From positions 124,001 through 188,000 of the forward strand of contig JAOUBJ010000008.1 in assembly GCA_029860345.1 (NCBI GenBank): a stretch of DNA of 64,000 nucleotides, read 5' to 3'. A program made the position numbers and the translations under genes. The notes below the pieces were generated by a model. The model saw nothing but the letters and a program-made list of their open reading frames with translations, made no database searches and was not told the origin of the DNA. Positions 4,227 through 55,014 of the stretch are shown here, in pieces (position 1 is the first letter of the stretch; each line of letters begins with the position of its first letter). The stretch is from Candidatus Zixiibacteriota bacterium. Lineage in GTDB: Bacteria > Zixibacteria > MSB-5A5 > GN15 > FEB-12.

Positions 4227-6815
4227 ATGAAACGCATCATGAGATCGTGTGTACTCGCTGCATCGTGTCTGGTTGTCGCCGGTGTGCTAGCTACCGGCCT
4301 CACGTCGGTGAATGCGAACGAGGTGAAGACAAACGGGCGAAGTATCGAGGAATTCGTAAACCCGGACGGTAGTTTCGATCTGGAGGATGCGCGACTTTCC
4401 GGCTTTGAAGGACCGCTGGACATGAAGGGGTTTGAATCGGCTATAGATTCGATCACCGGGCAACCGATGTTCAAGCCATCCGGAACCAGAGAAACCGACG
4501 ACCACCCGGAAGACATCTACTGGGACAACAGTATCTCACCGACCCTCGCCGGTGTAGATGACATCATCTATACGGCGACAGTCTACGATGGACGGCTTGT
4601 TGTCGCCGGTCGATTCTATCTGGCGGGCGACGTGATCTTGGATCACATAGCTGCGTGGGATGGCAGCAGTTGGTCTGACCTGGGAGCCCAGATGAATTCT
4701 CGGGTCGAGGCTTTGACCGTTTACGATGGGAAGCTGATTGCCGGAGGCTCTTTCACAAGAGCTGGCGGTGTCGAGGCAAGCTGCATAGCAGCCTGGGATG
4801 GGAGTACTTGGTCTTCCCTGGGTCAAGGATTAGGTGGTTGGGTCAGCGCTTTGACCGTGTACGACGGTGAATTGATAGCGGGAGGATGGTTCATTTCGGC
4901 TGGAGGCTCACCAGTAAACAGGATAGCTGCCTGGGATGGGAGTAGTTGGTCACCACTGGGATCGGGTTTGGAGGGCGATGGAATCGCATACGGGTTTTCT
5001 CTGACCGTCTTCGACGGAAATCTGATTGCGGGTGGGGGCTTCACTACGGCAGGAGGAGTGGCGGCAAACAACATAGCCTCCTGGGATGGCGCCAATTGGT
5101 CGCCACTGGGATCAGGGACGGATCATCTTGTTTACTCGCTGGGTTCTTACGATGGAAAACTGATAGCTGGAGGCAAATTCCTAACGGCAGGCGGCGTGGA
5201 GGCGACATTCATTGCCTCTTGGGACAGTACCGAGTGGTCACCACTTGGATCCGGGATGAACAAGAGTTCCGTTTTTTCTCTATTTGAGTACAATGGGAAG
5301 TTAGTAGCAGCAGGGAATTTCACTACAGCCGGTGGAGTGGAAGCGAGCAAGATAGCCTCCTGGGATGGGATCAATTGGACACCCTTTTCTTCGGGGATGA
5401 ACCACATTGTCTATGCCCTTACCCAGTACGAGGGAAATCTGATAGCCGTGGGTGAGTTCACATCGGCCGGAGGAGCCGGGGCATCCAGGGTGGCCTCCTG
5501 GAATGGAAACAGTTGGTCGGCGCTGGGGTCGGGAATAAGTGGTGCGATAAATGCCCTGGCTGTATACGATGGCAAAGTTATTGCGGGGGGCGAGTTCCGG
5601 GCGGCCTTCGGTGTACCGATGAACTTTCTCGCAGCCTGGGATGGAACCAGTTGGGCCTCACTCGGATCGGGAATGGACGGGACTGTCTTTGCCGTGACCT
5701 TGTACGCCGGGAAATTGATAGCCGGGGGTTCATTCACAACGGCCGGAGGTGTGACAGCAAACTCTATTGCCTCCTGGGATGGCAGCAGTTGGTCGCCCCT
5801 GGGATCGGGGATGGCGGGAGAGTACCCCGATGCCCGTGCCCTGGCTGTCTACGACGGGAAACTGATAGCAGGAGGTCGGTTCGACACAGCCGGCGGCGTG
5901 GAAGTGAACCATATAGCCTCTTGGGATGGGATCTCTTGGTTGCCGTTGGATTCGGGGATGAATGGTTCTGTCCGTTCGCTGGCCGCTTACGACGGGGAGC
6001 TGATAGCTGGAGGGTTTTTCGACACGGCAGGAGGAGTGGAAGCACAATACATTGCCTCATGGAATGGCAGCAACTGGTCGTCCGATCTGTCGCAGATGAA
6101 CGGATGGGTCTTTGCCCTAAACGTGTACGATGGGACACTGATTGCGGGCGGATCGTTCACGACGGCCGGAAGTGTGACAGGAACCAGTTTGGCCGCCTGG
6201 GACGGAAGCGGTTGGTCTTCTCTTGGGTTGGGGGTCTCAGGAAGAGTCCTCTCTCTGACAATACATGAAGGGAACCTGATATCGGGAGGACGACACACGC
6301 ACGCCGACGGCGCTGAGGTGAGCAAGATAGCATCCTGGAATGGCCACAGTTGGTCACCACTGGCATCGGGAATGAACACTGAGGTTCGCGCCCTATCCAC
6401 ACATGACGGTAAACTGTTTGCAGGAGGTACATTCACGTTCGCGGGAAACAAGGTCTCGGCCTATATGGCGGAGTGGACCTCCCCCCCGGATGCTGACAAC
6501 GATGGCACATCCGACGGCAACGACAACTGTCCGACCGACTACAACCCCGGGCAGGAAGATGCCGATGCAGACGGCGTCGGCGACATATGCGAAGCGACCT
6601 GCTGCACGCTAAGAGGTGACATCAACCGCGACTTCGCAGGTCCCGACATATCGGACCTGGTGTATTTGGTAGACTTCATGTTTAACGGCGGACCGGAACC
6701 GCCCTGTGAGCAGGAGGCAAACATTGACGCCGGCGGCGGGATCGACATTTCCGATCTCGTTTACATAGTTGACTACATGTTCAATGGCGGACCGCTACCG
6801 CCGGCGTGTCCTTAG
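4227..6815 (+). CDS. Secreted 14-repeat beta-propeller-like protein with dockerin
   Basis: 862 residues, start fixed by AAGGAGGA before the ATG. A signal peptide (about 1-31, cut near VNANE) is followed by a linker and then 14 repeats of about 46 residues (about 112-755). Each repeat carries the pattern YDGKLIAGGSFTTAGG, then IASWDGSSWSPLGSGM, resembling Kelch/delta-60-type propeller blades. Fourteen blades would make two seven-bladed propellers. Next come one thrombospondin type 3-like calcium repeat (DADNDGTSDGNDNCP) and a C-terminal dockerin-like module with two [17 protein letters not shown] repeats bracketed by CC and a final C. Likely surface-exposed or bound through the dockerin. The ligand is unknown. 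Confidence 0.85.
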   Translation: MKRIMRSCVLAASCLVVAGVLATGLTSVNANEVKTNGRSIEEFVNPDGSFDLEDARLSGFEGPLDMKGFESAIDSITGQPMFKPSGTRETDDHPEDIYWDNSISPTLAGVDDIIYTATVYDGRLVVAGRFYLAGDVILDHIAAWDGSSWSDLGAQMNSRVEALTVYDGKLIAGGSFTRAGGVEASCIAAWDGSTWSSLGQGLGGWVSALTVYDGELIAGGWFISAGGSPVNRIAAWDGSSWSPLGSGLEGDGIAYGFSLTVFDGNLIAGGGFTTAGGVAANNIASWDGANWSPLGSGTDHLVYSLGSYDGKLIAGGKFLTAGGVEATFIASWDSTEWSPLGSGMNKSSVFSLFEYNGKLVAAGNFTTAGGVEASKIASWDGINWTPFSSGMNHIVYALTQYEGNLIAVGEFTSAGGAGASRVASWNGNSWSALGSGISGAINALAVYDGKVIAGGEFRAAFGVPMNFLAAWDGTSWASLGSGMDGTVFAVTLYAGKLIAGGSFTTAGGVTANSIASWDGSSWSPLGSGMAGEYPDARALAVYDGKLIAGGRFDTAGGVEVNHIASWDGISWLPLDSGMNGSVRSLAAYDGELIAGGFFDTAGGVEAQYIASWNGSNWSSDLSQMNGWVFALNVYDGTLIAGGSFTTAGSVTGTSLAAWDGSGWSSLGLGVSGRVLSLTIHEGNLISGGRHTHADGAEVSKIASWNGHSWSPLASGMNTEVRALSTHDGKLFAGGTFTFAGNKVSAYMAEWTSPPDADNDGTSDGNDNCPTDYNPGQEDADADGVGDICEATCCTLRGDINRDFAGPDISDLVYLVDFMFNGGPEPPCEQEANIDAGGGIDISDLVYIVDYMFNGGPLPPACP

Positions 6816-7052
6816 ACCTCAATAGGGAGTATTGAAAAGGTCCCGGTTGGCGTCATTGCGAGGACGCCGAAGGCGGACGCGGCAATCTCATGCCTCGACT
6901 CCGCTCGGCATGACACGTGTGCCGCGAACTAAGATTGCCGCCTTCGCGGGTGTGACATGTGTGACGCGGGCATGAAAACTGAACGCGTTTTATAGCCCTA
7001 AGTGCGCTGAGCGCAGTCCAGACTCGTGCTGCCAAAAGCAGCCAAAAACAGT
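6816..7052. repeat. Intergenic dispersed palindromes
   Basis: No gene seen. It contains degenerate copies of the CTCGACTCCGCTCGGCATGAC-type repeat (near 6894 and 7008) and GCCGCCTTCGCGGGTGTGAC-type hairpins (near 6930) that recur in other gaps. These are genome-scattered repeats, not coding DNA. Confidence 0.6.
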
Positions 7053-7113
7053 TTGGAACAAGGACACTCCAATCGTATATTATGGATGCGTCAAGCGACC
7101 CGTCCAGACGGGT
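7053..7113 (+). promoter_or_regulatory. Promoter and 5' UTR hairpin of the Asp-box gene
   Basis: TTGGAA (7053-7058) and TATATT (7076-7081) have a 17-base spacer. ACCCGTC-CA-GACGGGT (7098-7113) is a perfect 7-pair hairpin about 17 bases downstream. This is the same layout as upstream of the gene at 4227, so the two are probably co-regulated or share a leader function. Confidence 0.7.
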
Positions 7114-7148
7114 TCTATCAGCAACGAAGACTGACTTCCGGAGGAATT

Positions 7149-9392
7149 ATGAGACACATCAATGTGACATTGGACGTCCTCGGCGTTTCCAGAAGCGGCA
7201 AAGGCAGCATTGTGATGTGGGCAGTGGTACTGCTGGCATTATTCACTCTCACGGATCGAGCCGACGCCCGGGTCTGGGAACATACAAGCGGACCGCTGGG
7301 GGGGGGAGTCGATTTCCTTGCCAGCGACTCAAGCGGTTACATGTTTACCAGCGGCTATGTCGGCAAGTGCTTTCGTTCTGCCGACGATGGAGATAACTGG
7401 ACGCAGCTCAGCGTTGACTGGAATGCCGGTGTGAGTGCGTTCGCAGTCAACGCCACCGGTGACATTTTTGTTGGTACCGATGGTGACGGCATTTATCGCT
7501 CCACTGACAACGGCGACAACTGGACGCAGCTCAACCTTGGCATGACGGTTTTATCCGCAAAGGATTTGGCCATCAGCCCCACCGGTGACATTTTCGCCGG
7601 GATTTGGTATCACGGCATTTATCGATCGTCCGACAACGGCGACACCTGGACGCTGGTCAATGGTAGTGTGCCGGTTACTTCTGTCTATTCTCTCGCCGTC
7701 AACTCAAGCGGTGACATATTTGCCGGTACTCGTAATGACGGTGTTTATCGTTCTACCGACAATGGCGACAACTGGACACAGATCGTCACTGGTTTGTCGT
7801 CAGCCCTGAGAATCTACTCTCTCGCCGTAAACTCCGGCGATGCCATTTTTGCCGGAACTGCAACCTACGGTGTGTATCGTTCTACTGACAACGGCGATAA
7901 TTGGTCGCAGATCAACAGCGGCATGGGCAATGGTACGGTCTCTGAAATAGCCATTGGCTCCACCGACGACATGTTTATCACTAACTCATTTACGGGTGTT
8001 TATCGTTCGACTGATAATGGAGATACCTGGACACAGGTCAACAGTGGATTATCGACGACAGCTGTCCAGGCCCTGGCCTTCGGGTCCAGCGGTAACATAT
8101 TTGTAGGCACAAAGGGCAGTGGTGTTTTTCGGTCGGGTGACAGTGGTGCCAACTGGGTCGAGATCAACAATGGCCTGACAGCTACCAGACCCTCGGCCCT
8201 CGCATTTAACGCAGGCGGCGACATTTTTGCCGGTACAATCGGCGATTTCTTTCGTTCGACCGACAACGGTGACACCTGGACTCAGATCAGTTTAAGTACG
8301 GGCTATACTTCGGTCCAGGCAGCCGCCGTCAACTCCGGAGGTGACATATTTGCAGGCGTCAGTTCTGGTGGTGTCTATCGTTCCACAGACAACGGCGACA
8401 ACTGGGCACAGACAACCAATGGACTGGGGAGCCCCACGGTCGGTGCTTTCGCCATAAGCACAGGTGGTGAGGTTTTTGCCGGTACTTTAGGTTCAGGTGT
8501 CTTTCGTTCAAATGACAATGGCGACAACTGGATACCGATCAACGATGGGATGATCAACCTGTATGTCAACGCTCTGGCTATCAACTCAGGCGGTGACATC
8601 TTTGCCGGGACGCGGGCCGGCAGTGTTCACCGTTCTACCAACAATGGCGATAACTGGACGCAGATCGAGCTGAGTCCGACGGTTTTTAGTGTCAGATCAC
8701 TGGCCATCAACTCGGCCGGTGACATTTTTGCCGGCACTAGTGCAGACGGCCTTTATCGTTCTACTGACAACGGCGATACCTGGACACAAATCTACAATTA
8801 TGCAAGTCTACCTTCGATCCGGGCAATCGTAGTCAATACCAGCGATGATCTGTTTATCACGAATTCTTTTGACGGCGTTCTACGTTCTACGGACAATGGA
8901 GATACCTGGATGGCGCTCAATTATGGCCTTCCCGGTTTAGAACTCCATGCTCTCGCCATCAGTTTCACCGACGACATAGTTGCCGGTATCTGGGGTGAGG
9001 GCGTTTACCGCTTGACTGAGTGCCCGGACGTTGATGCCGACTGGGTCTGTGATGCCTTTGACAACTGCCTCAATACGGCCAACGGCCCGCAAACAGATAA
9101 TGACCAGGACGGCCTTGGGGATGCCTGCGAATGTTGCTGTTCTCTGCGCGGGGATGTGGATCAATCCGGCACCTTGCCTGCACCCGACATTGCTGATCTG
9201 ACCTTCCTGGTAGACTTCATGTTCGCGGGCGGGCTTGCTCCGTCTTGTATGGGCAACGCTGATGTCGATGGTGATGCCGAGTGCCAGCCTACGTGCGGCG
9301 ACAGTCCTGATATCAGTGACCTGGTGTATCTTGTGGACTACATGTTCCAGGGTGGTCCGGCACCATTAGTTTGTCCGAGCGGCTGCAAGTAA
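7149..9392 (+). CDS. Secreted Asp-box (BNR) propeller protein with dockerin
   Basis: 747 residues. The frame runs further upstream, but those codons overlap the promoter; the ATG at 7149 has GGAGGA at good spacing and begins a long signal peptide (cut near ADARVWE). Thirteen clear Asp-box motifs (YRSTDNGDNWTQ) plus one degenerate copy repeat every 42-44 residues, again 14 blades, as in sialidase or Vps10-type propellers. No catalytic sialidase residues were identified, so binding or structure is more likely than glycosidase activity. A TSP3-like stretch (DNDQDGLGDACE) follows. The dockerin-like C-terminus is richer in cysteines than the others and ends VCPSGCK. Confidence 0.85.
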   Translation: MRHINVTLDVLGVSRSGKGSIVMWAVVLLALFTLTDRADARVWEHTSGPLGGGVDFLASDSSGYMFTSGYVGKCFRSADDGDNWTQLSVDWNAGVSAFAVNATGDIFVGTDGDGIYRSTDNGDNWTQLNLGMTVLSAKDLAISPTGDIFAGIWYHGIYRSSDNGDTWTLVNGSVPVTSVYSLAVNSSGDIFAGTRNDGVYRSTDNGDNWTQIVTGLSSALRIYSLAVNSGDAIFAGTATYGVYRSTDNGDNWSQINSGMGNGTVSEIAIGSTDDMFITNSFTGVYRSTDNGDTWTQVNSGLSTTAVQALAFGSSGNIFVGTKGSGVFRSGDSGANWVEINNGLTATRPSALAFNAGGDIFAGTIGDFFRSTDNGDTWTQISLSTGYTSVQAAAVNSGGDIFAGVSSGGVYRSTDNGDNWAQTTNGLGSPTVGAFAISTGGEVFAGTLGSGVFRSNDNGDNWIPINDGMINLYVNALAINSGGDIFAGTRAGSVHRSTNNGDNWTQIELSPTVFSVRSLAINSAGDIFAGTSADGLYRSTDNGDTWTQIYNYASLPSIRAIVVNTSDDLFITNSFDGVLRSTDNGDTWMALNYGLPGLELHALAISFTDDIVAGIWGEGVYRLTECPDVDADWVCDAFDNCLNTANGPQTDNDQDGLGDACECCCSLRGDVDQSGTLPAPDIADLTFLVDFMFAGGLAPSCMGNADVDGDAECQPTCGDSPDISDLVYLVDYMFQGGPAPLVCPSGCK

Positions 9393-30022: not shown

Positions 30023-30156
30023 GATTTCGATATTGTCTGTTCCAACGATTTATCTGCCCGGATTCGCGCCAGTTGCTACCAAAGCAACCGCGGGTTGACC
30101 GGTGGCATTTGCAGGTCCAACGTATTGTGTGCTCTGTTTCGAGCAGGAGAACTAGG

Positions 30157-30804
30157 ATGAGATCAAAGGTACTGAGACTAAGCCTCGCGATCGTATTGTT
30201 TCTTGCGTTTTCAACGACTGTGTTGGCGGCTAAAGATGAAAGAGACGCCCGGCCAGTCAAAAAGACTGATACCACCAAACAACCGACCAAACCAGCCACC
30301 AAACAGGCTCCGAAGGAACAGGATTCACCCAAAACTGTACCGACCATCCAGGAAACGACGCAACCGGTGACGATCACGCCTGGTACCGCCGACCCCCGCG
30401 CTGGTGAAGAGATCAACTGGCAGGTGCTGGCTGCAGGCGGCAACCTCAGCACCATGGGCACGATGATGCTTGGCTCCACAGTGGGCCAAACGGTGGCCGG
30501 ACAGTCGACGATGGGTAGCTTGACTCTGAACTCCGGTTTTCAGCAAAACTTCGAAAGCGGTGGCTCGGGTACCTGCTGTATTCCGCCGATGCGGGGTGAT
30601 GTCAACTACGACGCGAATGAACTGATCGATATCTCAGACCTGCTCTACCTGATCGATTTCATGTTCACCGGCGGGCTGGCTCCGGTCTGTCACGAAGAGG
30701 CGGATATCAACGGCGACGGCGCGGAACTTCTGGACATCAGTGATCTGGTCCACCTGATCGATTACATGTTTACCGGCGGCGCACCGCCGGCAGACTGCCC
30801 GTAG
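30157..30804 (+). CDS. Small secreted dockerin protein
   Basis: 215 residues from the ATG at 30157 (AGGAG at 7 bases; an upstream frame extension lies in the leader). A signal peptide (cut near VLAAKDERD) precedes a Lys/Thr/Pro-rich linker. Next is a short domain beginning EINWQVLAAGG with MGTMMLGSTVGQT and NSGFQQNF, then the dockerin-like module opening TCCIPPMRGDVNYD and ending DCP. The gene at 41001 encodes a paralogue with the same middle domain (QITWQMVSNGG, GFWQE). The middle domain is unrecognised. A perfect terminator follows. Confidence 0.82.
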   Translation: MRSKVLRLSLAIVLFLAFSTTVLAAKDERDARPVKKTDTTKQPTKPATKQAPKEQDSPKTVPTIQETTQPVTITPGTADPRAGEEINWQVLAAGGNLSTMGTMMLGSTVGQTVAGQSTMGSLTLNSGFQQNFESGGSGTCCIPPMRGDVNYDANELIDISDLLYLIDFMFTGGLAPVCHEEADINGDGAELLDISDLVHLIDYMFTGGAPPADCP

Positions 30805-31098: not shown

Positions 31099-33825
31099 AT
31101 GCAAAGTGCTAACTGTTTCTTCACTCGTAATGGTTTGTCAATGCTCCTGCTCGTAAGTGTGGCCGTTGGCATCCTTGGCCTGGCTACTCCGGCCAACGCT
31201 CAGTTGTTTGGAGACGGCTCCAACGGGAGCTTCAACCCCGGCGCCGGGACCTACCATGTACCGTCTGACCGGAATTACGTCAACCTGACTATCAACGCCG
31301 GAGCGGTTTTTGAAACCCACGGCTACAACATCCGTGTTTCCGGGACTTTGATAAACAACGGGACTATTACCGACTCCTACTCGGGCGGCACAGGCGGCTC
31401 TGGTGGTCCTGGTGGCGCCGGTGGCACAGGTCACGGTCCGCACATTCCCCCTCAAACAGGCTCGCCCGGAGTCTCAGGTTCTTCCGGCACAGTCAGCGGG
31501 GCTGGTTTCGGAGGGGCCGGTGGTGGCGGTGGCGGCGGCGGCGGCGGCGCCTGGGATGGTCTTTATAATGAGTATGCCCGAGGCGGGCATGGCGGTACAG
31601 GGGGCAAGGGCGGCAGGGGCGGCGGAGTCGTGAGGATTTACGCCAAGACCCTCGACAATAACAACCTCATTAGCGCTAAAGGACTTAATGGTCTGCAGGG
31701 CTTGAACGGACAGGGTGGATTCTATCGATCCTGGTCTGTCTTATTCGTAAACTATGATTTGGCCGGCGGCGGCGGCGGCGGCGGTCGAGGCGGCAGGGGC
31801 GGCAACGGCGGCCGAATTGAACTCTATTACGGGACGCTTCTGACCAGTGGATCGGTCACTGCCGCCGGCGGCAACGGCGGATCCGGAGGTATCGGTGGCG
31901 GCGGAGTGAATACCAACTACAGTTCCCTTGGCAGTTCTTCTGAAGAAAGCGGAGCCAGCGGCTCAGGCGGTGCCGGTACCGGTGGCCGAGGGGAGATTAG
32001 TAGCGTCGGTAGTAATTCTGGCAGTGGTTCATCGACGAATTCATCGGGGCCCAATGGCACAGTAAGCTGGATCCCCACAACGGTCTGTTATGTCGACGCT
32101 GACGCTGATGGCTACGGCGATGCCAGCGATCCAGGCACGGATGTAATCGGCGGCTGTGGCGCCGGATTCTCAACAAACAACAACGACTGTGACGACTCAG
32201 ACCCCAACACCCATCCCGGCGCCACAGAGATCTGCGACGGACAGGATAACGACTGTGACGGTAACGTACCGGCGAACGAGCAGGATCTCGACGGTGACGG
32301 TTGGTCATCTTGCGCGGGTGACTGCAACGACGGAAATGTCAATGTATTTCCGGGAGCAACTGAGATTCTCTGCAACGGCGTCGACGAAAACTGTAATGGA
32401 TTAGCCGATGACGACATCAACGCCGATGGCGACCCGGTATCGTTCTGTAACGGGGACTGTGATGACAGTAATCCAAATCGCTATCCCGGCAATACAGAGA
32501 TTCAGTGTAACGGCATAGATGAAAACTGCAATGGAAATGGCGACGATGATGCCGATGCCGACGGCGACGGTTGGTCGGTCTGCGCCGGTGACTGTAATGA
32601 TCTTAACGCAGGAATACATCCTGGACACGCGGAAGTGCTGTGCAACGGTATCGACGACGACTGCAATCCGGGCACGCTCGATAATCCCGATGCCGACGGC
32701 GACGGAATCTCTATTTGCGCAGGCGACTGCGACGACAACGACCCCAACGTCTTCCCCGGCAATACAGAAATCCAGTGTAACGGGATAGACGACAACTGCA
32801 ACGGAATGGGCGATGACGATCCCGACCTCGACGGTGACGGTTGGTCCGTTTGCTCCGGTGACTGTGACGACACCGATCCCGCCGTCAACCCCGGCCAATC
32901 CGAAGTATTGTGCGACGGCATCGACAATGACTGTGTAGCCGGCACTCTCGACGATCAGGATGCCGACGGCGACGGTGTATCTGTCTGCGCCGGTGATTGT
33001 GACGACAACGACCCTGCCAGATTCCCCGGAAATGTGGAGATTCTTTGTAACGGCATAGATGATGACTGTGATGCGGTCACACTCGACGACATTGACGCCG
33101 ACTCTGACGGTGTCTCACTGTGTGCCGGTGATTGTGACGACAACGATCCGACTGTTTTCCCCGGCAATGTTGAACTACCGTGTAACGGAATAGATGACGA
33201 CTGCGACCCCGGTACGTTCGATGACGCTGACAACGATCTGGATGGAGTCTCGTTCTGCGCCGGCGACTGTGATGACAACGACCCGAATATATTCCCCGGC
33301 AATGTTGAAACAACGTGTGACGGCGTGGACAACGACTGTGATCCAGGTACGCTCGATGATCCCGATCTCGACGGCGATGGAGTCACACTGTGTGCCGGTG
33401 ACTGTGATGACACCGACGCGAGTATATTCCCCGGTAATGTTGAGACTACCTGTAACGGTATCGACGACGACTGCGATCCGGGAACGCTCGATGATCCCGA
33501 TGTTGATGGCGATGGAGTCACACTGTGTGCCGGTGACAACTGCCCTAACGATCCGAATCCGGGCCAGGGGGACTTGGACTTCGACGGTATCGGCGATGTA
33601 TGTGACCCGATATGTTGTTTCAGTCGTGGTGACATTGATCACAGCGGTCCACCTCTGGACATTGCCGACCTCGTCTACCTGGTAGACTATATGTTCAACG
33701 GTGGTCCCGCACCGCCGTGCATCGATGAAGCAGACTTTGGTCCGCCGGCCGGAATCGACATTGCTGATCTGGTGTATCTTGTGGACTTCATGTTTAACGG
33801 CGGCCCGGCACCACCGGGCTGTTGA
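31099..33825 (+). CDS. Secreted Gly-rich protein with MopE-type metal-binding repeats and dockerin
   Basis: 908 residues, GAGGT before the ATG. A signal peptide (cut near ANAQLF) is followed by a beta-rich domain (about 35-95) and a glycine-rich region (about 95-330) with runs of Gly interrupted by AWDG and VVRIYAK segments. Ten full 45-residue repeats follow, pattern DADGDGVSVCAGDCDDNDP then FPGNxEIxCNGIDDDC. These match the putative metal-binding motif named after the copper protein MopE and would bind calcium or copper. A partial TSP3 unit and the C-terminal dockerin-like module (CCFSRGDIDHS to PAPPGC) end it. The repeats are similar at DNA level (135-bp period), so copy number could vary between strains. 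Confidence 0.87.
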   Translation: MQSANCFFTRNGLSMLLLVSVAVGILGLATPANAQLFGDGSNGSFNPGAGTYHVPSDRNYVNLTINAGAVFETHGYNIRVSGTLINNGTITDSYSGGTGGSGGPGGAGGTGHGPHIPPQTGSPGVSGSSGTVSGAGFGGAGGGGGGGGGGAWDGLYNEYARGGHGGTGGKGGRGGGVVRIYAKTLDNNNLISAKGLNGLQGLNGQGGFYRSWSVLFVNYDLAGGGGGGGRGGRGGNGGRIELYYGTLLTSGSVTAAGGNGGSGGIGGGGVNTNYSSLGSSSEESGASGSGGAGTGGRGEISSVGSNSGSGSSTNSSGPNGTVSWIPTTVCYVDADADGYGDASDPGTDVIGGCGAGFSTNNNDCDDSDPNTHPGATEICDGQDNDCDGNVPANEQDLDGDGWSSCAGDCNDGNVNVFPGATEILCNGVDENCNGLADDDINADGDPVSFCNGDCDDSNPNRYPGNTEIQCNGIDENCNGNGDDDADADGDGWSVCAGDCNDLNAGIHPGHAEVLCNGIDDDCNPGTLDNPDADGDGISICAGDCDDNDPNVFPGNTEIQCNGIDDNCNGMGDDDPDLDGDGWSVCSGDCDDTDPAVNPGQSEVLCDGIDNDCVAGTLDDQDADGDGVSVCAGDCDDNDPARFPGNVEILCNGIDDDCDAVTLDDIDADSDGVSLCAGDCDDNDPTVFPGNVELPCNGIDDDCDPGTFDDADNDLDGVSFCAGDCDDNDPNIFPGNVETTCDGVDNDCDPGTLDDPDLDGDGVTLCAGDCDDTDASIFPGNVETTCNGIDDDCDPGTLDDPDVDGDGVTLCAGDNCPNDPNPGQGDLDFDGIGDVCDPICCFSRGDIDHSGPPLDIADLVYLVDYMFNGGPAPPCIDEADFGPPAGIDIADLVYLVDFMFNGGPAPPGC

Positions 33826-35107: not shown

Positions 35108-35220
35108 CAGGGAGCACGGGATAAAATATACGATAGTTCCGACCAGAAAGATGCTGCCCATAGCACCAACGCTAACGCTTTAGACAACGGTACTACAAAA
35201 CGCTTTTGTACGGAGGAAAA

Positions 35221-37332
35221 ATGTCAAAGCGTACCAACCTCACTTGGGCCCAATCCCCGATGGATCTGTCGCGTTCATGTATCTTAATAGTCCTGTGCAT
35301 CCTGATGGTGTCATTCGTCGTCGGCGGCGCCCGGGCCAAGACAGTTGTCCGCATCAACAATCTCCCCTATGTCCAACCGGGCGACACTGTATCTATCGCG
35401 GTCAGCCTGGATAGCGTAACGGCAGGTCTGGACATGGCCGGATTCGACTTTATGATCAGTTGGGACAGGAGGGCTCTTCGGTTTATTGCCGCTCAACCCG
35501 GCCAGTTGCTTATTGACTGCGGCTGGGAGTATTTCAACTCCAGAGCGGACTCTTTGGACTGGGACGGATATCCGGCCACCATTCCGGTGGTCCGGGTCGT
35601 GAGTCTGGCCGATATGGCCAACGGGGACAATCACCCCACGTGCAACGCAACATCTCCGGGGGAGTTGGCAATACTAACCTTCGAAGCGAGCAACCACCCC
35701 AACAATCTTAGCCGCACATTCGGGCTTCATTTTGTGTGGGCCGATTGCGGCGACAACAGTATGGCCACAGTCGAAGGCAGCTTCTATATATCCGACGCAG
35801 TTTTCGAGAACGGCTCGGACTGGGCTATGGATACCTGGTTGCCCACCTTACGCGGCGCACCCGACGAATGCTCGGGCCCTGGTGCGGTTCGCGAGATCGA
35901 CTTTTACAACGGTCTGATCACGATGGCCCCCTCGGATTATGTGGGCGGGTCCGCCGTGTCGATCATTGGTGAGCCCTACACCTGGTTGGGATGGCCGGCC
36001 TCCGCGCAAATCGTCATCCAGAACCACAGGGCGCCGTGGTCCTCCTCCGGATTCGATCTGCTCGTTCGATATGATGCCGATGGCTTGAGGCTCCACTCTG
36101 TTCAGCAGGGCAGCGATCTCTTAGCCTGGGCTTGGGAGTACTTCCAATACGCATCCGATTCAACAGAGGGGCTGGTCCGCTTGGTTGCCATTGGGGATAT
36201 CAACAACGGAGACGTCCATCCGTCGAATCTGATTGACCAAGAGTGTGAACTGGCAACGCTCAACTTCATGGTAAGAAATGATCTGGCCAATATCGGACGG
36301 AAACTATCGCTAAGTTTTCAATGGATTGACTGCGGCGACAACACTTTTGCCAGTGCCCCCAGTGGTGACTCGCTCTATATCTCCGGCGATGTCTATGATG
36401 AATACGGCTTTCTGATAACTACTGATGACCCCTTCCCAACAACTCAGGGCGCGCCGAGCGAGTGCCTGACCGCCACGACCGTGCGTCGGTCGGTCGATTA
36501 CTACCAGGGCTTCATCCAAGTCGCTAATTCGAATCCGTCGGATGATACTGATCGTGGTGATGTCAATCTCAACGCCGTGCCTTATGAGGTTGCTGATTGG
36601 GTTCTGTTCACGAATTACTTCTTCTACGGCCTGAGTGTTTTCAACGTCAATATTGAAGCCCAGATCGCCAGTACTGATGTCAATAACGACGGGCTCATAC
36701 TGACGTTGGCCGATCTGATGTATTTTTATCGCATTGTAGTAGGTGATACTGAGCCGATCTGGAAAACCGGCGCCGTTGACGACACTGTTATAATCATCCA
36801 GGACACGATCGCCCACACGCTGTCTGTCACCTACCCTGACAGCCTGGCCATGCTGTACCTCACTTTCGACGGCACTATGGATTCACTACACTTCGAATCC
36901 GAGACGCATAGCGCCGGATACAATCACGATGGATATGCCACACGAGTGCTTGTCAGACCATCGCTAAACTACGGTGGCGGCGTTCCGGTACTACCGAGCG
37001 GCTTCCTAATGGACTACATTGGTGATGCCATGGCAGTCAGCGCGCATGCCGAGTATGACGGCGTTAATCCGATCCCTGCCATTGTTGTGATCGGCGACGG
37101 CGCACCCTGCTGCGTAATCCGTGGTAACATCAACCACGATCCGACCGGAGTGCTGGACATAGCAGATCTGGTCTACCTGGTGACATACATGTTCGACCTG
37201 GGACCGGCGCCGCCATGCCCCGGTGAGGCCGACGTGAATTCCGACGGCACTGGTGACATCGACATCGCAGACTTGATCTACCTGGTGGACTATATGTTCA
37301 ACGGCGGCCCGCCGCCGGTGCCGTGTCCGTAG
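35221..37332 (+). CDS. Secreted protein with two cohesin-like and two dockerin-like modules (candidate scaffoldin)
   Basis: 703 residues from the ATG at 35221, preceded by GGAGGAAAA. A signal peptide ends near GGARAK. Residues about 41-190 and 250-390 are two related beta-sandwich modules. Their features (PGDTVSIAVSLDSV, GFDFMISWDRRALRFI, ELAILTFEA and, in the second, GFDLLVRYDADGLRLHSV) resemble cohesins and related carbohydrate-binding sandwiches. Residues about 444-510 form an internal dockerin-like pair (RGDVNLNAVPYEVADWVLF and STDVNNDGLILTLADLM). After a further domain, residues 629-703 are the common C-terminal dockerin. If real, it could hold the other dockerin proteins. A perfect terminator follows. 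The cohesin call is inference from pattern only. Confidence 0.75.
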   Translation: MSKRTNLTWAQSPMDLSRSCILIVLCILMVSFVVGGARAKTVVRINNLPYVQPGDTVSIAVSLDSVTAGLDMAGFDFMISWDRRALRFIAAQPGQLLIDCGWEYFNSRADSLDWDGYPATIPVVRVVSLADMANGDNHPTCNATSPGELAILTFEASNHPNNLSRTFGLHFVWADCGDNSMATVEGSFYISDAVFENGSDWAMDTWLPTLRGAPDECSGPGAVREIDFYNGLITMAPSDYVGGSAVSIIGEPYTWLGWPASAQIVIQNHRAPWSSSGFDLLVRYDADGLRLHSVQQGSDLLAWAWEYFQYASDSTEGLVRLVAIGDINNGDVHPSNLIDQECELATLNFMVRNDLANIGRKLSLSFQWIDCGDNTFASAPSGDSLYISGDVYDEYGFLITTDDPFPTTQGAPSECLTATTVRRSVDYYQGFIQVANSNPSDDTDRGDVNLNAVPYEVADWVLFTNYFFYGLSVFNVNIEAQIASTDVNNDGLILTLADLMYFYRIVVGDTEPIWKTGAVDDTVIIIQDTIAHTLSVTYPDSLAMLYLTFDGTMDSLHFESETHSAGYNHDGYATRVLVRPSLNYGGGVPVLPSGFLMDYIGDAMAVSAHAEYDGVNPIPAIVVIGDGAPCCVIRGNINHDPTGVLDIADLVYLVTYMFDLGPAPPCPGEADVNSDGTGDIDIADLIYLVDYMFNGGPPPVPCP

Positions 37333-37346
37333 AAGTGAAATACAAT

Positions 37347-37373
37347 GGCAGGATCCTGGCGATCCTGCCTTTT
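37347..37373 (+). terminator. Intrinsic terminator after the cohesin-dockerin gene
   Basis: GGCAGGATC-CTGGC-GATCCTGCC, a perfect 9-pair stem, followed by TTTT, 15 bases after the stop codon. Confidence 0.85.
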
Positions 37374-37625: not shown

Positions 37626-40600
37626 ATGAAACGCATCACTCAAATGCAGGCGATGGTGGTAGTCATGGTGACGGTCCTGGCTTTGGTGGCTATGGCCGAC
37701 GTGCCGCAGATGATGAACTACCAAGGGAGACTGACCGATCAGTCCGGTGAGCCCCGTGACACTGTCGTGTCGGTTTCATTTGCGGTTTACCGCGATGCCA
37801 CTGGCGGTGAGGCAGTATGGAGTGAAACTCACCCCGATGTAATCGTAGTAGCCGGTCGGTTAAATGTTCGTTTGGGCTCTGTTGATCCGATCAGCGATGC
37901 CGTATTTGACGGAAGCGAGCGCTGGCTAGGGATCACGATCGGTGACGACGCGGAGACTTCACCTCGGACTCGTCTTACCTCGGCCGGCTACTCGCACCGA
38001 GTGAGTACGGTCGACGGAGCAACGGCGGGGAATCTTGTCGGAGATCTAAACGTCTCAGGCGCTATAACCAGTGGACAGCCGCCGGACCCGGGGATGGAAG
38101 CGGCATCCAATCAGATCTTTATCAACGGATCGGACGGTGTCATAATCTCCAGAGAGGGGCAGGTTTACCTGGGGAGAGGTCAGCCGTCCGACAGCCCCGA
38201 TTACCCCGACTTTTCCGATATCCAGGTCGGTGTCGGCACTCGAACGCCACAGCATACTCTGGACGTAGCCGGCGACATTCATGCCAGTGGAACCCTGGCG
38301 ATCGGCAACTCGATTTACCACGACGGCGTACTGAACCAGGTGCGAACCTCAGGCCCCACCTTGTCGCTGGGACGTGAGCCGAGTTACGGCACCTTTGATG
38401 ATATCAAGGTCGGCATTGGAACCGCGACGCCTGGTTCCAAACTTGATGTAGCCGGAACTGCTCGCATGACCGGCTTCCAACTGACCACTGGCGGGACCAA
38501 TGGATTTGTGCTTACTTCAGACGGCAGCGGCGTCGGCACTTGGCAGCCCACACCCGACTTTACGCCCCCGCCCAGTGACGGCGACTGGGAGCTCGGTCAT
38601 CCTAATCCCGATGTGCTGTTCACAATGGGAGATTGGGGCGTTGCGCGGCAGGGTGCGACATTGCACGGAGTGGCTGCAAACACGCACATCAACTTGGGTG
38701 GCTCCAGCGTCACCGGCACAGCCGGCAACGATCATCCCTTTGCCACGGTTAGCGGCGGTTTCGAGCACATAGCCGGCGGCCCATACAGTAGCATTGGGGG
38801 CGGATATCGGAATAGAGCTTGGGAGGAATACGCAGTCGTGGCCGGAGGATATCGCAACCGGGCCAAGGGCAGATTCTCGTCCGTTCTCGGAGGCGACGAC
38901 AACATTGCTGAACACGAGATGACGGTGATCGGCGGCGGTGCTCACAATCGCGCCGTGGGCTCGTACTCGGTCGTAACCGGTGGCTATCACTGTCACGCGT
39001 ATGATGACATGGACGTAGTGGGTGGCGGCCGGTACAATATCGCCGGGATGGACGACGGCGTCAATCAGGAGGCCCACTATGCCACCGTAGCCGGGGGCGG
39101 CCAGAACAATGCATGGAAGAAAGGTACGTTTATCGGCGGTGGTTACAATAATCATGCCGACGGCCAGTTCGCCAGTATCGTCGGCGGCACCTACAACCGG
39201 GTATACGCCGTCTTAGGCTCTATCGGCGGCGGCGGCAGCACTGTGTCAGGTGACGCGAGCACAGCCAACCTTGTTTATGACCGTTGGGGTACTATCGGCG
39301 GCGGCGGCGACAACCTGGCCGGCAACGATGACGGCGATATGCTCAGCGCCGAATTCGCCACCGTGGGCGGCGGTCAGGGCAACGAAGCCACAGGAAGTCA
39401 TACTACAGTTGGTGGTGGTTATCTCAATACGGCGACGGATTCCTGGTCTACCATCGGCGGCGGATACCAGAACTCCGTGGATGGACGGCAGGCAACAATC
39501 TCGGGAGGTAGAGGAAATGTAATACGGGCAGAAGGCACGTCCTACAGTTTTTCATCAGTCATTGGGGGAGGTTGGTTCAATGATCTCCATGGCAAGTATT
39601 CAACGATCGGAGGCGGTAGACAACATGTGATAAAGGGCTTTTACAGTACCATTGCGGGTGGTGGTGCCTGCTCTACTTTAGCGAGTGGTGCGACCATCTC
39701 GGGCGGTGGCTGGGATTTCACCCTGGTCGCTGGGGACGGGAACCCTTTACCTGAGGCGTATGAGACCGGTCATGTTGTCTATGATCATTATGGTACCATC
39801 GGCGGCGGCATGACCAACAGGGTTGGTACCGTTGGATCAGATGTCGAAGATGCACAGTGGGCTACCATTAGCGGCGGTGCGAACAATACTGCCAGCGCGG
39901 CTCATGCCACAATCGGCGGCGGCCATGACAACTATGCCTCCGGCGAGTTCAGCACCATCGGCGGGGGCAAATCCTGCGCTGCAAAGGACTATTACGCCGT
40001 TGTCGGCGGCGGAAACGGGAACATCGCCTCGGCTGGACATGCCACCGTTGGCGGAGGCTTTGACAACAAGGCAACGGCCAACTTATCCACGGTGGGTGGC
40101 GGACGAAGCAATCTGGCCAGCGGCCCCCAATCGACGGTTGGCGGCGGGTATGGCGACACGGCCACAGGAGACTTCTCCACCATCGCAGGTGGTTACTGGA
40201 ACAAGGCGTACGGCAGCATAAGCACGGTAGGCGGCGGCGCCTGGGATACTGCGTCCGGGGATTTTTCAACGGTGCCCGGAGGATGGGGCAACATAGCTGA
40301 GGGCGACTATTCGCTGGCGGCCGGTCGGAGAGCGCGCGCCGAACACCTGGGGACATTCGTCTGGGGTGATGCTACCGATGCGGTGTTCAATTCTACCGAT
40401 GTCAATCAGTTTCTCATCCGCGCCGATGGTGGCGTCGGTATTAACGTGGACGATCCATCAGAGGATCTCGATGTGTTAGGAACCGCTAAGTTGAGAAACA
40501 TGCCGGCTGACCCTGGGGGCACGTACTCTGTCATGGTCGACGCTACCGGAGTATTGTACAAGGGTGCATCAAGCAAAAGGTATAAGGAAGACATCAAACC

Positions 40601-40979
40601 GCTAAAGACTGACTCGCGCCAGACTCTCCTGTTGGAGCCGGTCAGATTCCGGTGGAAAGATTCTGGTAACGAAGACGTTGGGTTGATCGCTGAGGATGTG
40701 GCTAACGTGATTCCGGAACTGGCTGTATACGATAGCAACGGCAGACCTGACGGTGTTCGGTACGACAAAGTAGCCCTCTATCTTCTGGGTACGGTGAAGG
40801 ATCAAAGCCGCTTAATTGAGGAACAGAAGACTGAACTGAGCCTGTTGCGACAGCAAAACAGTTCCGAGATTCAAACCTTGAAAGAGGAAATGGCCCAGCT
40901 GCAGGAGCTCTTTGAAACTGTCCTGGCTCAACAGAACGATACCAAGGTCAACGGTACAAGTCTCGCGGCCAAGAATTGA
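37626..40979 (+). CDS. Giant surface adhesin with YadA-like head repeats and S74 self-cleaving chaperone domain
   Basis: 1117 residues. A signal peptide (cut near AMADVPQ) and an N-terminal domain (MMNYQGRLTDQSGEP, SFAVYRD) are followed by a linker and about 40 short repeats of 14-16 residues (about 360-910), such as ATVGGGQGNEATGSHT and TVGGGYLNTATDSWS. These are the left-handed roll of trimeric YadA-type heads. The C-terminus (about 980-1117) is a peptidase S74/endosialidase chaperone domain, SSKRYKEDIKPL, with Ser982 and Lys987 as the likely catalytic pair, then a coiled coil. S74 domains trimerise the fibre and cut themselves off. No outer-membrane anchor is seen. The gene is 21 bases before a dockerin gene. 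Confidence 0.85.
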   Translation: MKRITQMQAMVVVMVTVLALVAMADVPQMMNYQGRLTDQSGEPRDTVVSVSFAVYRDATGGEAVWSETHPDVIVVAGRLNVRLGSVDPISDAVFDGSERWLGITIGDDAETSPRTRLTSAGYSHRVSTVDGATAGNLVGDLNVSGAITSGQPPDPGMEAASNQIFINGSDGVIISREGQVYLGRGQPSDSPDYPDFSDIQVGVGTRTPQHTLDVAGDIHASGTLAIGNSIYHDGVLNQVRTSGPTLSLGREPSYGTFDDIKVGIGTATPGSKLDVAGTARMTGFQLTTGGTNGFVLTSDGSGVGTWQPTPDFTPPPSDGDWELGHPNPDVLFTMGDWGVARQGATLHGVAANTHINLGGSSVTGTAGNDHPFATVSGGFEHIAGGPYSSIGGGYRNRAWEEYAVVAGGYRNRAKGRFSSVLGGDDNIAEHEMTVIGGGAHNRAVGSYSVVTGGYHCHAYDDMDVVGGGRYNIAGMDDGVNQEAHYATVAGGGQNNAWKKGTFIGGGYNNHADGQFASIVGGTYNRVYAVLGSIGGGGSTVSGDASTANLVYDRWGTIGGGGDNLAGNDDGDMLSAEFATVGGGQGNEATGSHTTVGGGYLNTATDSWSTIGGGYQNSVDGRQATISGGRGNVIRAEGTSYSFSSVIGGGWFNDLHGKYSTIGGGRQHVIKGFYSTIAGGGACSTLASGATISGGGWDFTLVAGDGNPLPEAYETGHVVYDHYGTIGGGMTNRVGTVGSDVEDAQWATISGGANNTASAAHATIGGGHDNYASGEFSTIGGGKSCAAKDYYAVVGGGNGNIASAGHATVGGGFDNKATANLSTVGGGRSNLASGPQSTVGGGYGDTATGDFSTIAGGYWNKAYGSISTVGGGAWDTASGDFSTVPGGWGNIAEGDYSLAAGRRARAEHLGTFVWGDATDAVFNSTDVNQFLIRADGGVGINVDDPSEDLDVLGTAKLRNMPADPGGTYSVMVDATGVLYKGASSKRYKEDIKPLKTDSRQTLLLEPVRFRWKDSGNEDVGLIAEDVANVIPELAVYDSNGRPDGVRYDKVALYLLGTVKDQSRLIEEQKTELSLLRQQNSSEIQTLKEEMAQLQELFETVLAQQNDTKVNGTSLAAKN

Positions 40980-41000
40980 CATCGACGGAGTGGATATGTT

Positions 41001-41558
41001 ATGAAACGCTCACAATATACAATGGTTACGGCGATGCTGATGACGACGCTGCTGGTCGGTTCCGCGTTCGGCGATGGCCGCAAGATCGACGCACCGGCGA
41101 AAACCAGCCAAACAGTCGATCAGCAGCTAAGTCTCCAACTGCGGAGTGCCGTGACCACGACCAGTTCCGGTCAGCAGATCACCTGGCAAATGGTCTCTAA
41201 TGGCGGGACCGACGGTTCCTCGCCCAATCACGTACTGGTCGGCACGGTCAGCCAGACTGCTACCGGCTACGGCGAATCCGAGAGTTTCGGCCTCAGCCAT
41301 GGTTTTTGGCAGGAATCAGGCGGCGGTGGCACATGCTGCCTGCCAACCATCCGGGGCAACGTCGATTACGACATCAGCGACAATACTGATATTTCCGATC
41401 TGGTCTACATGGTCGACTACATGTTTACCGGCGGACCGGCACCCCCTTGTTTCGAGGAAGCCGATATGGACGCCAGTATGACCATCGACATCTCTGATTT
41501 GGTTTATCTGGTCGACTATATGTTTACCGGTGGACCGGCGCCGTTGGCGTGTCCGTAA
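41001..41558 (+). CDS. Small secreted dockerin protein, paralogue of the 30157 gene
   Basis: 185 residues. A signal peptide (cut near AFGDGRK) is followed by a Gln/Thr/Ser-rich stretch and the same short domain as in the gene at 30157 (GQQITWQMVSNGG, LVGTVSQTATGYGESESFG, HGFWQE). The dockerin-like module opens TCCLPTIRGNVDYD and ends LACP. It starts 21 bases after the S74 adhesin and lacks a promoter of its own, so the two are probably co-expressed. The middle domain is unrecognised. Confidence 0.82.
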   Translation: MKRSQYTMVTAMLMTTLLVGSAFGDGRKIDAPAKTSQTVDQQLSLQLRSAVTTTSSGQQITWQMVSNGGTDGSSPNHVLVGTVSQTATGYGESESFGLSHGFWQESGGGGTCCLPTIRGNVDYDISDNTDISDLVYMVDYMFTGGPAPPCFEEADMDASMTIDISDLVYLVDYMFTGGPAPLACP

Positions 41559-41622: not shown

Positions 41623-41672
41623 TACAAGAGACTCGCTACTGAGGATGTCACAATCGCAGCAAACCAAAGAAG

Positions 41673-41696
41673 CCACCCTCGCGCGGGTGGTTTTTT
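41673..41696 (+). terminator. Intrinsic terminator of the adhesin-dockerin operon
   Basis: CCACCC-TCGCGC-GGGTGG followed by six T, about 115 bases after the dockerin gene stop. Confidence 0.85.
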
Positions 41697-51936: not shown

Positions 51937-54900
51937 ATGAGAAGAAAGTCAGTTCTGTCTTTTGTTCTGCTGGTGTTGCTGTTTTCGACGGCGGCCGGCT
52001 ACGACTTCAATGGAGAGAGATATCTGAAGATATCGATCCGCGATAGAGCAGACCTGCCGAAGCTCTCCGGCCTGTTGTCGATCGACGACGTTCAGGGCGA
52101 GACCGTTTTTGCCTATACGCACGAGAGCAAACTGAACGAGTTGTCAACCCTGGGCTTCACTTACGAAGTCTTGCCTCATCCATCAAGTCTGGTGGATCCA
52201 GCCATGTCATCGGACAAGGTCGACGTAAAAGTTTGGGATGTGTATCCGACCTACGATGCCTATGTGGCCATGATGTACCAGTTCGCAGCCGACTTCCCGG
52301 CGCTGTGCCGAATCGAAAACGTCGGTACCACTGTTAACGGACGAGCATTACTCTTCGCTGTAATCTCGGACAATGTCGGAACTGAAGAGGACGAACCGGA
52401 AGTTATGTACACCAGTTCCATCCACGGTGACGAAACGACCGGTTCGGTGTTGATGCTGCGGCTGATCGACTCTTTGCTCACCACCTACGGCTCGGATGCC
52501 AGGATTACCAACATGGTGGACGAGATGGAGATTTGGATCAACCCTTTCGCCAACCCGGACGGCACCTACGCAGGCGGCAATCACACTGTTTCGGGTGCGA
52601 CACGTTCTAACGCCAACGGCTACGATCTGAACCGCAACTTTCCCGATCCGGAAGACGGCCCCACACCCGGCGGCACCCGGCAGATCGAAACCACGCACAT
52701 GATGAACCTGGCCGATGCGCACAACTTTGTACTCTCGATGAATTTCCACGGTGGCACCGAAGTTCAGAACTATCCCTGGGACACCTGGGTGCAACGTCAT
52801 GCCGACGAAGACTGGTGGCAACGTGTCTGCCACGCCTACGCCGACACGGCGCAGCAATACAGCCCAGGCGGCTACATGACCGGTTACAATGACGGCATTA
52901 CAAATGGATATGACTGGTACACGATCTCCGGCGGCCGTCAGGATTACATGACCTACTTTCAGCACGGCCGCGAAGTCACCAACGAAATCTCCGACACCAA
53001 ACTCCTCCCAGCCAGCCAGCTTCCGGCCTGGTGGGGCTACAATCGGCTGGCCCTACTTCAGTGGCTGGAGAACGCCTTGTACGGCGTTCGGGGAATAGTA
53101 ACCAATGTCAACAACGGACTTCCGGTGGTAGCGATGATCGAAGTGTTGAGTCATGACGTAGACTCCAGCCAGGTGTACACCGATCCGGATGTCGGCAATT
53201 ATCATCGAATGTTGGCCGCGGGCAGTTGGGACCTCAGGTTCACGGCGCTGGGATATATACCACAGACGATTTACGGCGTGTCGGTAACCGATTTCAACAC
53301 GACCGTTCTGGACGTACAGATGGAACCATTGTCCGACGATCCGGTGGTGGAATTCGGCAGTCACGACGCAGGTAGTCTGGACCCGGGCGATTTCGCCAGT
53401 ATGTTCGTCACGCTGGTCAACAACGGCGGCGGTGATGCAACCAATCTGTCGGGAACGCTGACTTGTGCCGACAGCTTCATAACGATCAGTCAGGACTATT
53501 CCACCTACCCGACCATTACTGCTCTGGGCGGTAGTTCTGCTTCCAACAGCGCCTACCAGTTCAACATTTCCGCCGCTTGTCCGGAAGAACATCCGGTCGA
53601 CTTCGTGATGCATCTGGCTGGTGACGCTTACACAGACAGCGTTGTGTTCGGCATGACTATAGGTTTGAAGGTTGAGGATTTCGAGTCGGCTGACTTCTCG
53701 ACCTATCCCTGGCAGATGTCCGGCAGTCAATCGTGGGTGATCAACGGTACCGCGTATGAAGGCAACTACTCGGCCAAGTCGGGCAGTATCTCTCACAACC
53801 AGTCGAGCACTATGTCGGTCTCTTTGAACGGCCTGACGGCCGGGACCATCAGTTTCTACTACAAAGTATCTTCCGAGGCCAACTATGACTACTTGAGGTT
53901 CTATATCGACGGCGCTCAGAAAGCTCAGTGGGCAGGGGACGTCAACTGGACACTGGCCGAGTTTGCGGTCACCGATGGTGATCACACTTTCCGCTGGACT
54001 TACTCAAAAGATGGCAATACTACCAACGGCAGCGACTGCGGTTGGGTCGATTATATTATCTTCCCGGCTTCCAGCTCCGACCGTGACGGCGATGGTGTGC
54101 TCAACGCCAACGACAACTGCCCCGACACCCCCAATCCACTTCAGGAAGACGGAGATGTCGATGGTGTCGGCGACGTGTGTGACAACTGCGAGTTTGTTGC
54201 TAACTCGTTACAAGAAGATGACGACACCGACGGCATCGGTAACGTTTGCGATAATTGTCCCACGGTGTCCAACGCATCCCAGAGCGACGGCGACGGCGAT
54301 GACTATGGCGATGTCTGTGATAATTGCGCGGAGGTTGCCAACCCGTTGCAAACCGACAGTGATTCCGATAACGTGGGCGACGTTTGCGACAATTGCGTGA
54401 CTGTCGACAATACGTCACAGACTGACTTCGATAGCGATGGCGTCGGCGACGCCTGCGATAACTGTTTCAATGTCGTTAACCCGGCACAGGAAGATAGCGA
54501 TGCCGACGGGAAGGGTAATCTCTGCGACAATTGTGAAGGGGTGGCCAATCCTGGGCAGGACGATACCGACTTTGACGGCATCGGTGACAGTTGCGACAAC
54601 TGCATCGCGCGACACAACCCGTCACAAATCGACACTGACGCCGATGGACTGGGCAATGGCTGCGATAATTGTCTCGACGATGCCAACCCGTTGCAAGAGG
54701 ACCTGGACTCAGATGGCGTTGGTGACAGTTGCGACAATTGCCTTACAATCTACAACCCGCTTCAGGAAGACGCTGACTCCAACGGGGTCGGTGACGCCTG
54801 CAATTATGTGTGCGGCGATATCGATAACTCAGGCGAGGGTCCCGATATCAGTGATCTGATATACTTGGTTGATTGGATGTTCACCGGTGGTCCACCGCCT

Positions 54901-55014
54901 GTCGAGTGGGGCTCAGCCGATGTCGATGGCTCCGGTGGTACCGCTGACATAGCTGATCTGGTCTATCTTGTGGACTTCATGTTCAACGACGGGCCTGCGC
55001 CGGTCTGTTACTGA
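51937..55014 (+). CDS. Secreted M14 zinc carboxypeptidase with TSP3 repeats and dockerin
   Basis: 1025 residues. A signal peptide (cut near AAGYDF) and pro-region precede an M14 domain (about 95-390). Zinc ligands are in [10 protein letters not shown] (HxxE) and SMNFHGG. The substrate Asn-Arg motif is YDLNRNFPD, and the catalytic Glu lies in [10 protein letters not shown] regulatory-like domain ([16 protein letters not shown]), a CARDB-like stretch and a jelly-roll-like domain (about 580-710) follow. About nine TSP3 calcium repeats ([12 protein letters not shown]) and the dockerin-like end ([10 protein letters not shown] to APVCY) complete it. It digests peptides outside the cell. This dockerin has one cysteine fewer at the front and lacks the middle one. 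Confidence 0.92.

Follow-up and report, generated by a model that had tools for sequence, protein, structure and literature searches.

The window analysed here is a 64,000-nucleotide (nt) stretch of the forward strand of contig JAOUBJ010000008.1 (positions 124,001–188,000) from a Candidatus Zixiibacteriota assembly (GCA_029860345.1; 4.76 Mb in 35 contigs, 99.3% complete). At window positions 37626–40979 (+) lies a gene for a 1117-amino-acid (aa) fibre, followed on the same strand after a gap of 21 nt by a gene for a 185-aa partner (41001–41558, +) with a signal peptide, a conserved stretch that we term the beta motif and a dockerin; we propose this partner as a candidate docking adaptor for the fibre. 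A preliminary description of the DNA, made from its letters alone, had given the same two open reading frames (ORFs) and the same spacing, and both proved correct and in frame. A consensus scan found no terminator-like hairpin in the 21-nt gap, and placed one between the fibre and the gene upstream of it (37347–37369, +) and another after the pair (41667–41696, +); these are consensus matches only, nine having been found as compared to 4.2 expected in shuffled sequence. The short gap and the hairpins outside the pair suggest that fibre and partner are co-transcribed.

The fibre ORF encodes, in order and all on the (+) strand, a predicted signal peptide (37626–37697; a hydrophobic N-terminus without a lipobox cysteine, read by eye), a YQGRL domain at the N-terminus that is related to the MAT N-domain of Bdellovibrio (37701–38021), a head of YadA/UspA1-like repeats (38745–40283), an S74 intramolecular chaperone/protease domain (40569–40721) and a polar C-terminal tail with a likely coiled coil (40773–40934; called by eye). 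The head contains 28 GG motifs between residues 374 and 886, mostly at a period of 15 aa, and matches the UspA1 head structure 3pr7 (E = 1.2e-8), while Pfam detected the S74 domain (PF13884, residues 982–1032) at 37.3 bits, above the gathering cut-off of 22. In a Pfam scan, the YadA anchor domain was absent from the fibre, i.e. no type Vc anchor barrel was found. From residue 40 onwards, the highest 19-residue hydrophobic mean is 1.02 on the Kyte–Doolittle scale, and the part C-terminal of S74 is polar, so that no membrane anchor of the fibre's own was detected. The YadA-like head and the missing anchor, both claimed in the preliminary description, were thus borne out. Head and S74 domain together suggest that the fibre trimerises.

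Relatedness of the YQGRL domain to the MAT N-domain was indicated by the NCBIfam model Bdello_MAT_N, which matched it with E = 2.7e-5 (24 bits, under the curated Bdellovibrio cut-off of 60) and was matched at E ≤ 0.01 by 20 members of a 21-member N-domain family set (best 1.9e-10; 21 of the 33 N-domains listed). The host genome holds 27 such N-domain matches, one of them a fragment. AlphaFold2 modelled the domain as all-beta with a mean predicted local distance difference test score (pLDDT) of 85.5; a PDB search with this model returned no match at E ≤ 0.001 and was uninformative as to the domain's partner. This agrees with the text of the MAT paper, whose authors state that the MAT N-domain lacks homologues in the PDB and propose that it attaches to a surface element still to be identified (Caulton et al. 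2024; PMC10769870). As described there, the S74 subgroup of Bdellovibrio bacteriovorus MAT fibres likewise combines a signal peptide, a conserved beta-rich N-domain, a long trimeric shaft and a terminal S74 domain with an SxxxxK motif, and the fibre studied here is a new member of this already known MAT/S74 kind. It differs from the Bdellovibrio fibres as presented in that source by its YadA/UspA1-like head shaft and by its conserved neighbouring beta-motif/dockerin protein; a term search found neither 'dockerin' nor 'operon' in the main text of the paper. Domain and dyad are shared with the S74/endosialidase chaperones of phage tail fibres and myelin regulatory factor, yet here they belong to a bacterial fibre that is secreted and has a YadA-like head. 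With the YadA/UspA1 trimeric autotransporter adhesins the fibre shares the head repeats, whereas in place of their C-terminal beta-barrel anchor, which was not found, it has S74 and a polar tail.

At the start of the S74 domain, Ser982 (codon 40569–40571, +) and Lys987 (codon 40584–40586, +), as read from the translation, form a Ser-x4-Lys dyad. The preliminary description had named this pair and proposed looking for it in relatives, where it is indeed conserved: across 76 S74 domains the serine position holds Ser in 69, Thr in five, Cys in one and Ala in one, the lysine position holds Lys in 75, and both residues occur in each of the 79 domains retained when other genomes were scanned (best matches only), although conservation is somewhat inflated by the choice of both sets with models that hold the dyad positions. 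The 76 were drawn from 78 S74 places, one at a contig edge and one without an ORF having been left out. S74 is present in 39 of the 61 genomes searched, host genome included, the host itself having seven S74 genes. A family profile built from 13 of the 76 domains matched the long tail fibre distal subunit 6f45, myelin regulatory factor 7dc3 and the neck appendage protein 3gud. The five domains with Thr for the catalytic Ser keep the Lys (e.g., G060:C20, G053:C556, G027:C181 and G000:C5:229086) and possibly cleave more slowly or are inactive. In known S74 proteins, the part set free is the C-terminal chaperone; because of this, S74 cleavage alone should not strip a fibre of its N-terminal attachment. 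For the Bdellovibrio S74 fibre Bd3182, Caulton et al. report experimental evidence of autocleavage at S782, the released part being the C-terminal chaperone (PMC10769870). By analogy with this tested homologue, and given the conserved residues, the present fibre would be cut before Ser982.

Within the partner, the beta motif (41169–41312, +) spans about 48 aa and is conserved in fibre partners, with the family consensus GxxIxWQVxSxGG...GTxGQTAVG...HGFWQ. A comparison of 17 of the 19 motifs with Pfam gave no family shared by two or more of them (best E = 0.016), and a set of whole partner proteins comprised 21 of the 24 listed. One beta-motif protein from another genome (L166, G004:C207) carries, by eye, a T9SS-type C-terminus (YPNPFN...KKMVLLK; T9SS, type IX secretion system) in place of a dockerin. 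The C-terminal module of the partner (41334–41555, +) is type I dockerin-like, with two calcium-loop/helix repeats, the first loop being, by eye, two residues over canonical length. Searched alone, this module gave no match to Pfam Dockerin_1 at E ≤ 1. The Pfam model was, however, matched by 12 of 18 related modules picked by hand (best 1.2e-15), and a profile of this family retrieved dockerin structures, including the CelS dockerin (E = 1.1e-5). In the AlphaFold2 model of the partner, pLDDT exceeds 90 across most of the module, and Foldseek searches with the model returned dockerins at all of ranks 1–24 (probability 0.72–1.00), albeit with a best E of only 0.017 over 68 alignment columns of the 185-residue query. 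The module is thus predicted to have the dockerin fold, as cellulosomal type I dockerins do, and the dockerin originally assigned to the gene following the fibre stands on the family profile and the predicted structure rather than on a Pfam match of its own.

Dockerin-like modules are abundant in the host genome, with at least 150 present (150 scored of 238 candidates), the same order as the 222 dockerins stated for R. flavefaciens FD-1 (PMC2930009). Beta-motif genes are rare, numbering six. A neighbour drawn from so large a secreted set could be an unrelated one, the fibre being an ordinary MAT/S74 fibre held by its own N-domain on a surface element, as the authors of the Bdellovibrio MAT paper propose (PMC10769870); that most S74 fibres have no partner would fit this as well. 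We nevertheless regard such an account as unlikely, since the neighbour belongs to a specific subtype and the arrangement is repeated in relatives. A fibre gene adjoins five of the six beta-motif dockerin genes of the host genome versus three of the 144 other dockerin genes (Fisher p = 5.6e-7; 150 scored places of the 238 candidates, with gene ends estimated from frame lengths), and on these counts chance adjacency was rejected as a full explanation. The sole exception among the six, with no adjoining fibre, also lies in the window (30073–30804, +).

The same arrangement was found across relatives; the beta motif is present in 55 of 61 genomes. Of about 116 beta-motif matches listed, the 63 best were considered, 62 of them with an ORF: 42 of the 62 have a same-strand MAT-type fibre within 200 nt, in 41 of these 42 pairs the fibre lies upstream, pairs occur in 30 of the 41 genomes of this best-match set, and 61 of the 62 proteins end in a dockerin; as the genomes are related, these are not counts of independent events. 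Specificity of the pairing for S74 fibres was rejected: only 12 of the 42 paired fibres carry S74, so S74 is not the driver of the pairing. From the S74 side, the partner lies directly downstream of 19 of 76 genes, in 14 genomes and with gaps of −32 to 25 nt. The idea of the preliminary description that surface attachment is provided by another protein is accordingly supported in kind, a beta-motif/dockerin partner recurrently following MAT-type fibres, but the pairing is not tied to S74. Elsewhere in the host genome (G000:C5:222977-235114; L079, L152), four MAT-type fibre genes in a run are followed by one beta-motif dockerin gene, which suggests that a single adaptor may be shared among several fibres.

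A position directly downstream of the fibre in 41 of 42 pairs would equally suit a secretion or assembly helper, for instance a trimerisation or base-capping factor, that does not anchor the fibre and whose dockerin merely concentrates it with other secreted proteins; the low confidence with which the beta motif is modelled as a monomer could then reflect folding of the motif on the fibre. Against this stands the retention of a C-terminal dockerin, a module known for stable docking, by 61 of 62 partners, and we think a purely assembly-related function improbable.

Cohesin matches were found in all 21 genomes searched, 20 of them over the cut-off. Of the seven cohesin ORFs of the host genome, five have a T9SS type A sorting domain at their C-terminus, and each of the remaining two ends in a dockerin. 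Among relatives, the C-terminus was visible for 23 cohesin ORFs, and the type A model matched all of them at their end; these come from 28 of 30 named loci, two host-genome loci having been left out, and are mostly per-genome best matches. Across the host genome, T9SS type A sorting domains number 68, and one protein is SprA-like. T9SS-tagged cohesins fit a cohesin held at the surface, as proposed for Ca. Stygibacter (Cloacimonadota), for which a cohesin scaffoldin is described that carries a surface-attachment domain at its C-terminus (PMC8542988). That the module binds no cohesin here and instead serves this lineage as a tag for C-terminal sorting or retention, much as the T9SS domain does, appears quite unlikely. 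In its favour, 26 of 30 modules examined among the 150 or more end no more than 10 residues before the stop codon, cohesins are few in the genome and the G004:C207 protein bears its YPNPFN-type end where a dockerin would stand; but in fold and profile the modules match cohesin-binding dockerins, and cohesins occur in each of the 21 genomes searched.

Taken together, we give an even chance to the pair being a MAT-type trimeric surface fibre with a dedicated docking adaptor held by a T9SS-anchored cohesin. The fibre would be exported through Sec and would trimerise along its YadA-like head with the help of the C-terminal S74 chaperone. Cleavage before Ser982, as in the Bdellovibrio homologue, would free about 136 C-terminal residues and expose the mature tip. 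Judging from the recurrent gene pairing, the beta motif of the partner would bind the fibre base, probably the YQGRL N-domain, and from the domain inventory the dockerin would plug into a cohesin held at the cell surface by its T9SS sorting domain. More tentatively, and short of what we would call probable, the MAT-type fibres of the phylum at large may be held by such a modular plug, which would grip the fibre base with its beta motif and dock into T9SS-displayed cohesins with its dockerin.

Several observations weigh against a docking adaptor of this kind. Model confidence is low over the beta motif (10-residue means of about 45–51); 57 of 76 S74 genes have no partner immediately downstream; and 20 of the 62 beta-motif genes are not beside a recognised fibre, of which five have less than 500 nt of contig upstream and two follow an S74 gene with an unrecognised N-domain. 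Cohesins and dockerins are lopsided in number (eight cohesin matches in the host genome versus at least 150 dockerins), the best cohesin score is a modest 44.9 bits as compared to the cut-off of 24.1, and some cohesin matches could be other Ig-like domains. Finally, none of the dockerin proteins upstream of other S74 fibres carried a Pfam cohesin (0 of 5 tested).

This last result concerns the gene upstream of the fibre (35206–37332, +), which encodes a 708-aa cohesin-bearing protein with a C-terminal dockerin-like module of its own and is a possible docking component. Pfam PF00963 scored 30.9 bits over the whole protein versus a cut-off of 24.1, while the best single stretch in the genome search reached 21.5 bits, under the cut-off. 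The gene lies 293 nt upstream of the fibre, with the first terminator-like hairpin in between; given this hairpin and the 0 of 5, it was rejected as a recurrent part of the cassette. Elsewhere in the window, other dockerin-bearing secreted proteins are encoded at 4227–6815, 7026–9392, 31099–33825 and 51937–55014, all (+); these four comprise a beta-propeller (DUF5122/Rax2), a sortilin-like protein, one with MopE repeats and an M14 carboxypeptidase.

Beyond the phylum, of the proteins next to S74 fibres, eight of 33 downstream versus three of 31 upstream carried T9SS sorting domains (p = 0.19; the eight being seven type A and one type B, taken as different proteins), and with these counts a T9SS-sorted partner beside Bacteroidota S74 fibres was not established. 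By eye, four proteins directly after S74 fibres in Neomarinimicrobiota and Bacteroidota (L218, L229, L246, L270) have beta-motif-like openings, and L246 and L270 also bear T9SS-type motifs; a regular expression for a Bacteroidota version of the motif matched one protein (L214). These are hints only that the neighbouring protein in Bacteroidota and Neomarinimicrobiota might do the docking job directly, by a T9SS sorting domain of its own.

As in the system described for Ca. Stygibacter, cohesin proteins here have T9SS-type C-terminal domains and dockerin proteins are separate (PMC8542988). The cargo of that system as described, and of cellulosomes, consists mainly of degradative enzymes, whereas here one class of dockerin protein is a fibre-associated adaptor. 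What is new as a variant is the recurrent combination of a fibre with a beta-motif/dockerin adaptor against a background of cohesins that mostly carry T9SS tags; for it we infer the docking mechanism outlined above. Among open-licence PMC papers, none contained both 'Zixibacteria' and 'dockerin' or both 'tail fiber domain-containing protein' and 'T9SS type A sorting', and broader searches there returned no title on a fibre–dockerin pair, all of which is weak evidence of absence.

If the docking mechanism holds, the modular plug would give a concrete candidate for what attaches MAT-type fibres to the cell surface, and cohesin–dockerin pairing would serve as a general surface display for adhesins rather than as an enzyme scaffold. 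A conserved neighbour with a recognisable docking module offers a testable candidate for MAT fibre fixation, and points to cohesin–dockerin docking that may be widely used for adhesins, beyond polymer degradation, in this T9SS-bearing lineage.

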